Positions 39,801-45,800 of a stretch of 64,000 nt of DNA are shown here, one piece after another. Numbering within the stretch: the first letter of the stretch is position 1; every line of letters starts with the position of its first letter. This DNA comes from Diplonema papillatum (lineage: Eukaryota > Euglenozoa > Diplonemea > Diplonemida > Diplonemidae): assembly GCA_030068145.1 (NCBI GenBank), contig JAPJBO010000002.1:62001-126000 (forward strand), written 5' to 3'. The notes below the pieces were generated by a model that did no database searches, was not told where the DNA came from, and saw nothing but the letters and a program-made list of their open reading frames with translations. The position numbers and the translations under genes were made by a program.

Positions 39801-42800
39801 CGCCCGTCGTTGCTACCGACTGGCTGTGGGATAGAGCTTGGGAGAGGGAAGCTCGTTCTTGGCAACAAGTTCAGCGCCAGTTGACTGCTAAGGCGGGGTG
39901 GGGTTCGTTGTTGCTTTTGATTCTGGAAGACGAAGGAGCAGGCGGTGAAGGTTGCGGTGATATCTCCGCCGGACAAACGTCCTTGCTCATCGCCGGACAT
40001 GGTTACACACACCGAAGGGCTACCCGCAGGGTTGTTTAGCCAAATGGATGAATGACACGGCAATCAGCTCGCATCAGGAGGTTTCTGGGGCGAGGTTAGT
40101 CGCCTGGGATGGGGTATCCATATTTATAGAGGGTGAGAGTCCTGTCTTTTCTCGACGAGCCATGTTGGTTAACTTCGTGTTTCCTCCTGCTCTCTACTGA
40201 GCCGTGACGAAGAGAAGCTATGTCGTGCCAGTCAAGCAGTGATCCTTGTCGGATGCAGGCAACTGCATCTTCGTATCGCCGACCTGCAACCACCTCTGGG
40301 TGCTTGCAGGTAACATCAACTGGGGGGTTTGAAACATGATGATGAATATCTAAAGCCCGCACCTACGCGGCGTTGAGTGTGGCTGGTCTTTGTAAGGGCT
40401 GCCTTGATGGTACTTTGAGCAAACTCACACTAAGCTGACCACCTGGGGCAGCAACCAGGATTCGCACCGCCCAGCGGGTCTTGGTAGGTACCTCCCCACA
40501 AGCGAGCAAACCCAGACGTTTGAAATCAAGAGGTCGGTAGCCCGCCCAAGTGCTACATGACTACAAATGCAACGCCCAAGATAACCCGTGACAGGTCGGC
40601 CGCCACCACCCTGTTAGGCCAACAGGGTGAAATCCAAGAGCACGACTGATGATGCCTGGCATTGGATTAGTCTCGTGTACCGGGCGAAACTTAGGCGGCG
40701 GGTCTGTCACTTGGGCAACAACCAGGAACACACTGGTAGGTGAGCAGCGACACATCACGAAAGTGAGCCAAGGGCGAAGGACGTATCTGCGGCTGCTGCG
40801 GCAGTTGCCCGGTGGCAACACCACACGCAGAATGCGGGGAAGGGAACGTGTTTTCCCGACTACATTGAAGCCCCTTCCCGACCGTAGCATCCGAGGAAGG
40901 TGCAAACATGGAGGGTGCTACGGTAGCCATGCACGTGGGCGCTGCCTCGTGCAGGGCGGGTGCTTTGTGATCCGCCGCTAAGTTCCCTCCTGGTGCAGTC
41001 CGGAGAGACCGGCGTCGAGTTTCGGCTCACAGCCAACAAGGACGGAACCCATAACCACGCCTTGATGCTTTAGTTTGGGAAATCGGTAGCCACTTGACTC
41101 GTCGGCCCGTGGCCCTCTGCAGTACCGCCGAAGACGTGAGCTTGGCACCCGTGCAGCAGGCTTTCCCTGGTACCTGAGACGCCGTGGAAGAATTGCAACT
41201 ACATCAAACAACAGAAAGCTGGCACTGCGTAGACAAGGGCGGAACCCATACCTCCAGCTGCGAGTAGTCGCTCTCGATCATGACCCCCTCAGGCTCCTTT
41301 GTTTTCGGGTTTATGAACCGCGTCTGCAGGCACTTCTTCACGTTGCTTTTGTCCCCTGTGTGTGTGTGTGTGTGTGTGTGTGTGTGTGTGTGTGTGTGTG
41401 TGTGTGTGTGTGTGTGTGTGTGTGTGTGTGTGTGTGTGTGTGTGTGTGTGTGTGTGTGTGTGTGTGTGTGTGTGTGTGTGTGTGTGTGTGTGTGTGTGTG
41501 TGTGTGTGTGTGTGTGAATCCTACGTCCTGTCCTGAGGTTACGTTGTCTTTGGTTGTTGCTGTCGTTGCTCAGGTTGCTGCGGCTCAGGCTTCAGTCGCA
41601 GAACAGCAAAAGAAGGGAAAGACAAACAAAGGAACCCATCGAAACATTTCTTCTTGCGCAAGGAAACAAACAGACGAGCATCTGGCCAGTGCGTGATGGA
41701 GGGTGAATAGACCGCGAAAACGGCGCATCACAACAGAAGGGGAAGGGGGAGATACAAACAAGTAGGACGACGACGAGCCGTCGTACCATGGGGTCCTTCT
41801 TAGGCACATCGAAAAGCGACACTACCGCACGCACCGGGTCTGAACGATGTTGCGGAAGCGCCACATGCTGGGCAACGCACTGATGGATAAAAGCGGCCGG
41901 CATCCGGGTTTTTGGACCGGGAACCGGAGATCGAGAGAGCACTGCCTGTGAAAACGCGCCGGTCTCTTGCAGCATGTCGATGAAAGATACGTCCCATCCT
42001 GAATCTAACGCCATGCGTCTGAGTGCCTTCAAGTCTATTAGACCCGTCGGGAAATCATCCAGACGGGCTCCGGGAGCGCGATTGTCAGCAGCCTTTGAAA
42101 AGGAGGCGAGGAAAGGTATGAGCTCCGAGTATACGAACCTCCAGAACTCATCTGGGTATGCACATATACCTTCCCCAAAAAGTATCCTGTACAAGTCAGG
42201 GACCCGCGCATGCCTTACTGAAGGGCAGACAGTTGTGCCGGCCTGCGGCCTATGTCCGCAGGTGCCGTTTGCATCATATACCGGCGTGTCGTGCGGGGAT
42301 CGGAATGGCGGAGCAACTCGACGAGCTCCTGCCTCGTGGCTCCATCCCTCTCTAGTACCTGGGTGGCGCCACGACGGAAACTGTGCAAGACGGCTCCTGG
42401 CGGCAAGGCAGCTCGGATCCTCTGAAGGGCGACATCGTACTCTTGTTTCGTCTGAGCAAATACGGGTCCCGACCGGGTCGCTCGGACGAGTCGAACCAGC
42501 CGTGCAGTGAGAAGCCCGGGCGGCATGTACTCCGGAGCATTGTAGGACTTTGCCTGTTTCTCCTTCATGTACAGTTGCAGCCCGACCATCTGCGGGGAGG
42601 CACCCCGGTTGTGGATCTCCTCCACATCTTCGCACGTCAGCACGCGGAGATCGGGAACTCGAGCCCGAGTCAACCATACCGTCGCTACCATCGCGGCCTC
42701 GCGTGCATGGCCTTTCTGCTCCAGCCTTTCGACTGTCGCTCTCGCCTGAGCCGTATCGAGCGGCGTCGCCTGATGGGGTCGAACCATCACCGAAAGCCGC

Positions 42801-45800
42801 TTCAAGGCCTGCGCCGTCTGCTGGACACGTCTCGTCCTCACCCCGCGTATGCCGTGGTCCACCAATACCTTCATGAGCCGCGAGAGGTAATTTCGCACGG
42901 TCAACGGCTGGGCCGGTCCCAAACGACTCCAAGCAAACCGAACGAGAGACAAATCGACGGGGGCGCGCCTCTCTTGCGTCTCCAGGAAACGAGAGAACTG
43001 GGCCAGCAGCCGGTCGGCCTCGCCGACATTTCTCGGACCCGTTGCGAACAGATGTGCGTGTTCGGGCGGGATGCTGCTGGCAATGGCGCGAGCCAGTGCG
43101 TGTCCGTCGCGAATCAAGAACAGCTCGTGTTCTAGTCTCTCGCGGGCGCTCTGGTTTCGCAGAAGCATGCTGCTCACTTCTGCCGGGCGAACGACTTCTT
43201 GCCCTCGCTCCCAGATCTGCTGCCCTCTGAACGGGGGCGAAATCCGGACTGCTTCGGCCGACGTTCTCGGCCTCCGCCTCCCCGAGACCGACGGCGATAC
43301 GCATGTGTCCTGGGCGCGGCTGCCTCGTTGATAGCTGCCGCCGCCGCGACCTCTGCTGCCTGCTTCGCCCGCTTCATGCGCTGTGGCACCACTTCGGGGT
43401 CCTCGAGGGCGCCGGCGAACGCATCCGCGGCCTGGTACCCCAGTTTCTCGCGGACCCTCCAAAACTCCAACTGCTCGGCGATCCTGCTCAACACGGCACC
43501 GTCGTCTTCTCCTGACAGGACCATCCTGACGATGTCCGTCAGTTGCCGGTAAGCCGCTGCCGCAGCGACCTGTAGGGGGGCTCGATTCCCTAGCTCTGTG
43601 AGCAAGAGCTGGGAAAAACCCGGCTCGTCGTCCGCAAAAACCGGCCACGACGCGCCATCGTGTAAAACAGCTCTGACGGAGCCCGAGTCGAGACGTCTCT
43701 TGTCGTTCCTGTCTTCCGGAACATAGGCCTTTGATGGGGGAACGGCGGGCTCTGGCGCGGCGACTAGCTTCCAAAAACGCTTCAGCTGATGATGCGGGAC
43801 AGGCTGAAACGTGCTCTGGCCCAAAACGACGAGGGTGACACCCTCCAGTCCGATGTCGGTTATCACGGCCGTGACCGTACCATCCGTCATCTTTGCTCCA
43901 AGCTCCAACCCTTCCATCAGCGTCGGGGCGGGAAACTCCTCCGCCTGCTGTTGAGGCTCGGTGGACTCGCTTGCCTTGTTCTCCAATGCACCCACCCGGT
44001 TCGCAATGCCCGACAACACGCTCAACACCTCTTCCAGCTTCGCTTCGACGGAGCCGGAGAGGCTAGGGGCCGGCACGACCGGTGTGGCGGGGGCCGTCTG
44101 AGACGTCACATTCTTCTTTATCGCCGCCGTCGTGGACGCCGCGTCCTTTTCCATGCAGGTCGTGACGACTCCCAAAATTGCGGTCGCCGACATCTTCCCG
44201 AGTTCAGCGTACGGGACAGCTAAGAGGTCGACGATCACCCCTTTCGCCTGCTCGACGGTGTGATGAGAAAACCCACCAAACCAGTCGCGGCAGTTCTTCT
44301 CCATCTCGGCGGTGCTGAAATTCCGTCGTGCAGTGCCAGGAGCTGAGCCGAAAACGGCGGTCCATCTCTGAACTAGCGGTGCAGGAAAATTGAAGTCTGC
44401 GCGTTCTCGTGCCGGGAGGGGCGAGCCTTGCATTATTCTCGGGGGAAGGGGGAGATACAAACAAGTAGGGGGCGTTCGAGCGGTGAGCCTGCTTGTGTTC
44501 GTGTGACTACCCCTTTTCCAACCTCGATTCGAGTGGTGTTAAGAAGGAGGCATCGCTTTCTCTGGACAGGATAGGATTCCACTAGACGCGCCTTCGGCGC
44601 TCAAGCAAGCTTGCTAGTATGTGTGTGTGTGTGTGTGTGTGTGTGTGTGTGTGTGTGTGTGTGTGTGTGTGTGTGTGTGTGTGTGTGTGTGTGTGTGTGT
44701 GTGTGTGTGTGTGTGTGTGTGTGTGTGTGTGTGTGTGTGTGTGTGTGTGTGTGTGTGTGTGTGTGTGTGTGTGTGTGTGTGTGTGTGTGTGTGTGTGTGT
44801 GTGTGTGTGTGTGTGTGTGTGTGTGTGTGTGTGTGTGTGTGTGTGTGTGTGTGTGTGTGTGTGTGTGTGTGTGTGTGTGTGTGTGTGTGTGTGTGTGTGT
44901 GTGTGTGGAACTCAATGATGGGTACACGAGGATGTGGCCCTGCTTAGGTGTTCACTCAGCCATCAACACTTCATTGCGGGCACAACATGCAAGAAGGCCT
45001 GGAAGAAATCAGGAGCCGCGGGTAGCACCCGAGAGCGCCACTCACAGCACCTTCAATCTGAGCCCAGACCTAAACCCGCACTGACAATCCCGCATGTGTC
45101 CTCAGAGCCCCAGAGCTCGCCACTTGGTGCTTATACAAAAAAGAACTACTGCTTCAGCCACGGTAGTCCACTACACTACCGTCAAAAGCTGATAGGGCAG
45201 AAGCTCTTGCGGGCTTGCACCGACTTGAAGTCGTGTGCTATCACTCGATTGACCTGCTTCATCCACACACCGCTGCTATTGCTAGCGTTGGTTCTTATCT
45301 CGGTCAATTGTATCCACCTCGACCCCGCGGTTTTAAGGCCACGGGGTTGAATCGAGTTGGATTCTTCGGACATGTATTCGCAATGGAGTTACCTTTGTTA
45401 TCCGACTGGGCCCAAAAGGCACCTTCCCCGCGTAGATTGCCACCGATTTAATGAGCCGTCTGCAGACCCACTGTTAATCCATTTACTCTGAGACTTGCAT
45501 GGCTTAATCTTTGAAACAAGCTGGCGCTCATATAAAAGCACAACACACACGGTGGTGCAAGCGAAGCACACATTAGATTGTGTTTGAAAGTTTGTTGAAC
45601 GCTTACGCCCGCCACGAAACCCATATTCACCTGTGTTTCGTGTGGGCTACAGCACATTTACCTCCTTTGAGTTTGGAATATTGTTGCGATAGTGGGGAGT
45701 CATCGGCATGTCCATGAGTACCACACTATACCTTGAGATTTCGCAACTGGCAGTCTCCTCCAGTACTTCCTACAAAGTAGGTGCTTACACTGCTCCCGCT

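Follow-up and report, generated by a model that had tools for sequence, protein, structure and literature searches.

The 64-kb stretch of contig JAPJBO010000002.1 considered here, to which we refer as the window, carries on its minus strand a damaged copy of a retroelement with a tyrosine recombinase (YR), running from 44619 to 41516, its ends having been set by comparison of copies. We consider it likely that this element, designated family 1, is a YR retrotransposon that encodes its own proteins, has moved recently, shares the architecture of VIPER and makes its home in microsatellites of the (CA)n type, with the window copy as a deletion derivative. The evidence read from the DNA consists of the gene order, the repeats, the (CA)n flanks, a covarying palindrome where the repeats meet, the near identity of the copies and the deletion joints at the 5' edge of a 28-bp repeat called R.

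The genome from which the window comes (271 Mb in 2910 contigs) was searched at the DNA level. Among the 61 match rows obtained, at least 16 places, counting the window, match query positions 1-2733 at 98-100%, the copy number being a lower bound because 40 of 135 candidates were scored. We read 10-kb stretches around the 15 other copies of family 1 (L021-L035) and around five diverged relatives (L036-L040). The complete element measures 4379 bp in L021 (2038-6416) and contains a gag-like frame (2224-3480), a YR frame (3444-4439) and a frame for reverse transcriptase (RT) and ribonuclease H (RNase H) at ~4394-6139, open from 3284; the window copy is missing 1274 bp of RT/RNase H, equivalent to L021 4890-6163. 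The order gag-like, YR, RT/RNase H, which a preliminary description had proposed from the window, is borne out in L021 and in the diverged relatives L036 and L037 (one family), L038 and L039, and in none of these full-length copies, sought genome-wide, does the recombinase follow RNase H. Compared with L021, the identity of YR is 73% in L037 and 70% in both L038 and L039, that of RT 60%, 62% and 62%, respectively; L040 retains only parts of the element. In L021, L036, L037, L038 and L039 the frames of gag, YR and RT are successively offset by one step (-1). Fourteen copies were compared, L021 serving as reference for the other 13, with the exclusion of L033 because it departs from family 1 past L021 position 4957. 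Ten of the 13 have no substitution over 4379 bp, eight of them without gaps and the other two with 1 (L025) and 102 gap columns (L030); the rest show 2 substitutions (L031), 3 (L028, plus 54 gap columns) and 4 (L032, plus 3 gap columns). From such near-identical copies we infer a recent burst of family 1.

Judging from profile matches and conserved residues, the YR frame of the window is that of a tyrosine recombinase. It matches a PHROG integrase with an expect value (E) of 6.3e-8 over residues 104-314 and Pfam Phage_integrase with E 0.0015 (18.7 bits, where the curated cut-off is 27.1), and the residues R, K, HxxR, H and Y, to which we assign the catalytic roles, are kept in all four aligned YRs. 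A PDB search with the YR profile returned five matches, the best being a decapping protein (E 0.37) followed by HP1 integrase (0.38). The RT of complete copies matches RVT_1 with E 2.1e-14; Pfam detects RVT_1 plus a weak RVT_3 and nothing else in the RT frame of L021, and RVT_1 alone in that of L037. Residues D204, D268 and D269 of RT and D439, E472, D496 and D545 of RNase H, whose roles are likewise our assignment, are kept in five of five sequences, including the RT of a second, related element in the window (see below). The usual RT motif is YxDD; its region reads CYDD in the four family 1 relatives and WYDD in the second family. No methyltransferase domain was found by Pfam, and the RT/RNase H protein of 582 residues extends only 37 beyond D545, its final RNase H carboxylate. 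Ty3 and retroviral-type RTs lead the best 60 of 205 sequences in a PDB search with the RT profile. Searching genome_contigs and viral_contigs for relatives with the RT and YR profiles gave 167, 79 and 174 pattern matches, of which none was confirmed, and the DNA pattern of the left end had no match in genome_contigs. The gag-like frame has no match in a Pfam search.

The element opens with repeat A, which closes with R, and ends with repeat B, which opens with R. The two positions that the preliminary description had given as ends, 41739 and 44469, turn out to be the outer edges of the two R copies (41739-41766 and 44442-44469), which are separated from the true ends of the element by 223 and 150 bp. 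Seven of the 16 family 1 copies (L022, L023, L026, L027, L031, L034 and L035) have the arrangement B1-CA-A2-B2 with a single CA. Short AB units conform to the same design: five of the seven compared are exactly 401 bp long, equal to A (178) plus B (251) minus R (28), and match A and B in sequence without any difference, those of L022 and L024 showing small differences from this form. In L024 an AB unit stands apart, 134 bp upstream of the copy, and the tail unit of L031, outside the comparison of seven, is longer and contains two copies of R separated by 128 bp of gag. A2 is also present at the 3' end of L036, L037, L038 and L039, the terminal unit measuring 346 bp in L038 and 349 bp in L039. 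Inverted terminal repeats of DIRS type with an internal complementary region were not encountered, direct A/B repeats being found instead; the B-A junction does have a short inverted repeat, which is arranged differently from those of DIRS.

CACACACACACA comes before each of the 14 intact left ends among the 16 family 1 copies, and CA repeats also lie next to the left ends of L030 and L032, which are truncated; the intact outermost right ends run into (CA)n in 15 cases out of 15, and the left ends of L036-L040 adjoin (CA)n too. The orientation of (CA)n relative to the element is constant. Walking outward gives flanks of 28-300 bp on the left and 30-478 bp on the right, with 0 at the truncated left end of L030. 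The window has three (CA/GT)n tracts of at least eight units, two of which are the flanks of the copy. We further surveyed 28 loci and the window (leaving aside L009-L020, which overlap L021-L035 or the window) for stretches, 60-6000 bp in length, bounded on either side by a sense (CA)5 tract: 31 of 46 start with (TA)CTAGCAAGC, in a biased sample, most loci having been picked around copies. The 31 include non-autonomous units of 362 bp (L025, L028, L033, L034) and 373-375 bp (L029, L032, L034), and at least three of the 15 non-fitting stretches are truncated or shifted copies (L030 2249, L034 8248, L034 8745). A relative of the left flank of L021 is found in L035 (plus strand, 4-78; 93% over 75 bp), where it continues into a short, unbroken (CA)n without the element; this would represent half an empty site, as the other side differs. 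A further repeat, whose end resembles GGCACCACGT and borders on (CA)n, is present at several loci between (CA)n tracts (L024 left flank, L040 and L029 among others).

At the window locus, the tract that adjoins the right end of the element also terminates an intron of the gene for DNA polymerase A. Matches to DNA_pol_A fall in frames 46199-47290 and 36230-36898, on the same strand as the element, and the intron has the borders CCCAGAG/GT at 46296 and (CA)nCACACAG/GGGAC at 41356, the splice reading VPR-GDKSN. To our knowledge, kinetoplastids have almost no spliceosomal introns. Because the interrupted gene carries one, the host is very likely not a kinetoplastid, which agrees with the earlier placement of the element outside trypanosomatids. 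The right flanks of L021 and L029, like 41357-41516 of the window, read like a 3' splice site (CAG/...), which is shown to be in frame for the window alone; CA-tracts may be common at intron ends in this genome.

The DNA in which B meets A across one CA is predicted to fold into an imperfect, Y-shaped hairpin of ~20 pairs, the tip of which bears two small hairpins. The z-scores of five such junctions as DNA are -7.3, -9.8, -7.2, -6.7 and -4.7, none of which is equalled by 200 shuffles each. For covariation we used six junctions, two joined by hand, in which L038 and L039 are close kin so that the sequences are not independent: 92.3% of cells pair, whereas slid partners give 34-46%, both sides are altered between families in 11 of 31 pairs, and the covariation score is reached by none of 500 shuffles. 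All two-sided changes lie in the outer helix, the tip helices being near-invariant and hence outside the covariation test.

Three classes of deletion join upstream element sequence within 0-3 nt of the first base of R: that of the window (L021 4889 to 6164), that of the L031 tail unit (L021 2343 to 6166) and that of C2252/C707 (query 1573, 3 nt, then 2735). Such joints are expected from template switching on an RNA whose 5' end is R, to which we would attribute them. Exchange between families is suggested by L033 (minus orientation, 2191-6024), apparently a product of template switching: this mosaic consists of A, gag, YR and part of RT from family 1, followed by a different gag-like sequence (38% identity), and closes with the B end of the 373-375-bp units.

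How would an element organized in this way move from one microsatellite to another? In the cycle that we consider the most likely, RNA would start at the first base of R in A1 and proceed through the gag-like, YR and RT/RNase H frames and B1-CA-A2, up to the next R. RT would then make complementary DNA (cDNA), in which strand transfer between the R copies would close a circle, B meeting A across one CA. The B-CA-A junction, a long palindrome with two tip hairpins, would be the recognition site of YR, and this enzyme would exchange strands at its CA with a CA of genomic (CA)n, after which (CA)n would flank the insertion on either side without any further duplication of the target. A more specific version, to which we give rather low credence, holds that the folded Y-shaped hairpin, in the circle or in single-stranded cDNA, would itself be the substrate of YR in the manner of integron attC sites, with any CA in (CA)n as its partner; autonomous and 360-400 bp non-autonomous families would share this device and so colonize one type of microsatellite, outside kinetoplastids and with VIPER gene order.

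Several points weigh against this picture. The circle, the transcript start at R, the recent activity and the chemistry of YR are deduced from sequence alone. Nine of the 16 copies are without a directly attached A2B2, so that the 3' partner for the proposed strand transfer is missing there, and the terminal unit of L036/L037, of ~193 bp, is without most of B (in L036, A is followed by barely more than GGATTC). Further pair types in the junction are not exceptional, 95 of 500 shuffles reaching their count; the C68 deletion joins away from R (query 1144 to 2233); (CA)n could in principle have been added after insertion, the empty site found being only half of one; and the AlphaFold model of YR is unusable, with a predicted local distance difference test (pLDDT) score of 41.8. 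Expression poses a difficulty of its own. A programmed frameshift at a conserved slippery heptamer was rejected, none being present in the gag/YR overlap scanned in L021, L036, L037, L038 and L039, and a start codon for YR lies close behind the end of gag only in L021 (5 nt past the stop) and L038 (26 nt). Slippery heptamers occur in the YR/RT overlap of L036, L037 and L039, and not in that of L021 or L038. Splicing of gag to RT was examined by hand and rejected: the frames fit L021 only with a shifted acceptor and misfit L036.

With regard to origin, there is a close to even chance that family 1 is a Ngaro-like (or PAT-like) element in which YR moved before RT, the VIPER order having arisen independently in this lineage. 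Ngaro elements likewise have split direct repeats, A1-[open reading frames (ORFs)]-B1A2B2, and no methyltransferase (PMC8547959, PMC4157794), besides solo AB units (PMC8547959); structural features are considered homoplasious, with a warning against using them alone (PMC4157794); and 15 Ngaro and 5 PAT-like families have been reported from the alga Ectocarpus (PMC12477816), whose 'Ngaro' families may include elements such as ours. However, in Ngaro a gag-like ORF1 is followed directly by RT/RNase H as ORF2, leaving YR in third place, and no simple-repeat target is mentioned in the accessible text (PMC8547959), whereas YR precedes RT in L021, L036/L037, L038 and L039.

A substantial possibility, which we would still bet against, is shared descent with the VIPER/TATE elements of kinetoplastids, as the architecture would suggest; family 1 would then belong to a VIPER-like clade outside Kinetoplastida. 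VIPER and TATE have the gag-like, YR and RT/RNase H frames in one orientation, split direct repeats A1...B1-A2-B2 and no methyltransferase, and SIRE of Trypanosoma cruzi consists of short units equal to A2B2 (PMC6681497), much like the short AB units described above. TATE is repeat-targeted as well, in that it sits in the simple hexamer repeats of telomeres (PMC6681497), for which family 1 has (CA)n instead. However, few significant matches outside Kinetoplastida have been reported in the same study (PMC6681497), and the likeness to VIPER is one of architecture.

It is improbable that the (CA)n flanks were made by the element, carried along or grown after insertion, rather than chosen as target. 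Microsatellites do expand readily and the lengths of the flanks vary, but a single CA and no tract stands where B1 meets A2, the flank repeat in L035 has (CA)n without the element, and the tract in the window forms the end of a host intron. The deleted state of the window copy, with its truncated RT, could by itself suggest a chance or broken juxtaposition of YR and RT from different elements, which we regard as refuted by the 15 other places that match at 98-100%, by near-identical complete copies on many contigs and by the diverged families with the same layout.

The coordinates of these and the other features of the window are collected in the following table.

Features of the 64-kb window discussed in the text (positions are those of the window)
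Feature	Position	Strand	Basis or remark
Family 1 window copy, with internal deletion	41516..44619	-	aligned to L021 2038-4889 + 6164-6415
Gag-like frame (first ATG 44433, stop included)	43174..44433	-	basic C-terminus
YR frame (stop included)	42215..43213	-	first ATG 43168, 5 nt past gag stop
RT/RNase H frame, N-terminal part (residues 1-165 of 582), remainder deleted	41769..42263	-	frame comparison
Repeat A1 (178 bp), left end, begins TACTAGCAAGC	44442..44619	-	copy comparison
28-bp repeat R, closing A; sense strand CCTACTTGTTTGTATCTCCCCCTTCCCC	44442..44469	-	copy comparison
Repeat B (251 bp), right end, opens with R (41739-41766), closes GTAGGATTC	41516..41766	-	alignment, copy comparison
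(GT)n tract, sense-strand (CA)n, 5' of element	44620..44907	.	read from sequence
(GT)n tract, sense-strand (CA)n, 3' of element; terminates host intron (CACACAG/exon)	41357..41516	.	read from sequence
Host intron of DNA polymerase A gene, containing the element	41356..46296	-	in-frame splice ...NMQNVPR/GDKSNVKK...
Related second element: RT/RNase H frame enclosed by split direct repeats A1, B1, A2, B2	18563..21206	-	repeat comparison
Second element RT/RNase H frame, 674 aa	18930..20954	-	31% identity over 488 aa to family 1 RT
(CTT)n, sense-strand (GAA)n, adjoining 3' end of second element	18342..18563	.	read from sequence

The RT at 18930, which the preliminary description had taken for the matching RT of a relative, belongs to a distinct family with other terminal repeats, its identity with the RT of family 1 being 31% over 488 aa, and no YR was seen in the window copy of this second element. 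Its right end adjoins 222 bp of (GAA)n and its left end follows GAAGAAGA. Among the 36 other match rows that reach the end of the element, 27 stop there (query 2698) and 9 run to 2705 into GAA; a (GAA)n target is therefore not general for the second family. In 27 of its 47 other rows the shared sequence begins only at query 610, at 96-97%. The analogous junction of this family folds weakly (z -1.2, with 20 of 200 shuffles as good).

The genome contains other recombinases, L001-L008 being the YRs with its top Phage_integrase scores (the score of L002 and L004-L006 equals that of L001). At the loci read, L001, L003, L007 and L008, no RT was noticed in 3.5 kb of sequence; these stand-alone YRs are possibly Crypton-like. 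For family 1 itself, a Crypton-like or stand-alone YR DNA element is ruled out, since RT/RNase H lies in the same unit as YR. Elsewhere in the window, a single frame of 2164 aa at 55424-61918 (plus strand), which has an RT (RVT_1, E 3.4e-8) and whose C-terminal third contains long proline-rich repeats, probably represents a long interspersed nuclear element (LINE). Long open frames of tandem repeats (QSLTHPPPFSLYHSDEQRRYRRWGQHTISSNLL and LALHQGSL units) lie at 2.0-3.3 kb and 49.9-50.5 kb on the minus strand, and three frames that look by eye like ankyrin repeats follow in succession at 26015-27022, 29866-30774 and 31871-32959 (minus strand).

In comparison with known systems, the split-direct-repeat layout common to VIPER, Ngaro and PAT (PMC6681497, PMC8547959, PMC4157794) is matched by family 1, the terminal unit of L036/L037 excepted. 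Earlier work confines the VIPER architecture to kinetoplastids (PMC9210276, PMC3783388); the sequences analyzed here support its presence outside them. Family 1 differs from VIPER/TATE in the 28-bp overlap of A and B, in the palindromic B-CA-A junction and in its host, which is very unlikely to be a kinetoplastid. The CH-box (CX2CX4HX4C) of the gag-like protein, present only in some VIPERs (PMC6681497), was not seen by eye in four gag sequences, that of family 1 included. PAT-like and DIRS-like elements carry a methyltransferase, and DIRS inverted repeats; family 1 has neither, and the whole of its YR precedes RT. The integration model for PAT-like and DIRS-like elements, in which YR inserts a circle at a short stretch of identity and the target is not duplicated (PMC3266345), resembles the cycle proposed for family 1. 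In the literature searched, as far as the accessible texts go and with supplements not covered, there is no report of a microsatellite-specific YR retroelement, of a palindromic circle junction or of the VIPER order outside kinetoplastids.

In evolutionary terms, several such families with near-identical copies outside kinetoplastids supply new sequences with which the contested origin of YR retrotransposons can be tested. Neither the (CA)n habit nor the covarying junction was part of the preliminary description; together, (CA)n specificity and the palindrome constitute a concrete, assayable model of target choice by a YR retroelement, a matter on which the literature consulted offers models only. 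The habit may also spare the host: in the window, the intron finishes with the tract and its splice-site sequence is preserved. Folded DNA is known as a signal from other systems: the attC sites of integrons are imperfect hairpins that act in recombination when folded, and T-shaped viral terminal hairpins, with small hairpins at their tip, serve as signals for recombination or replication. The likeness of the B-CA-A junction to both lies in the predicted fold only. As for the target, Togen and other microsatellite-specific LINEs insert specifically in (TG)n (PMC4640811). The Togen group is of the LINE type, without long terminal repeats, and family 1 is a YR element, and both reside in the same type of repeat.

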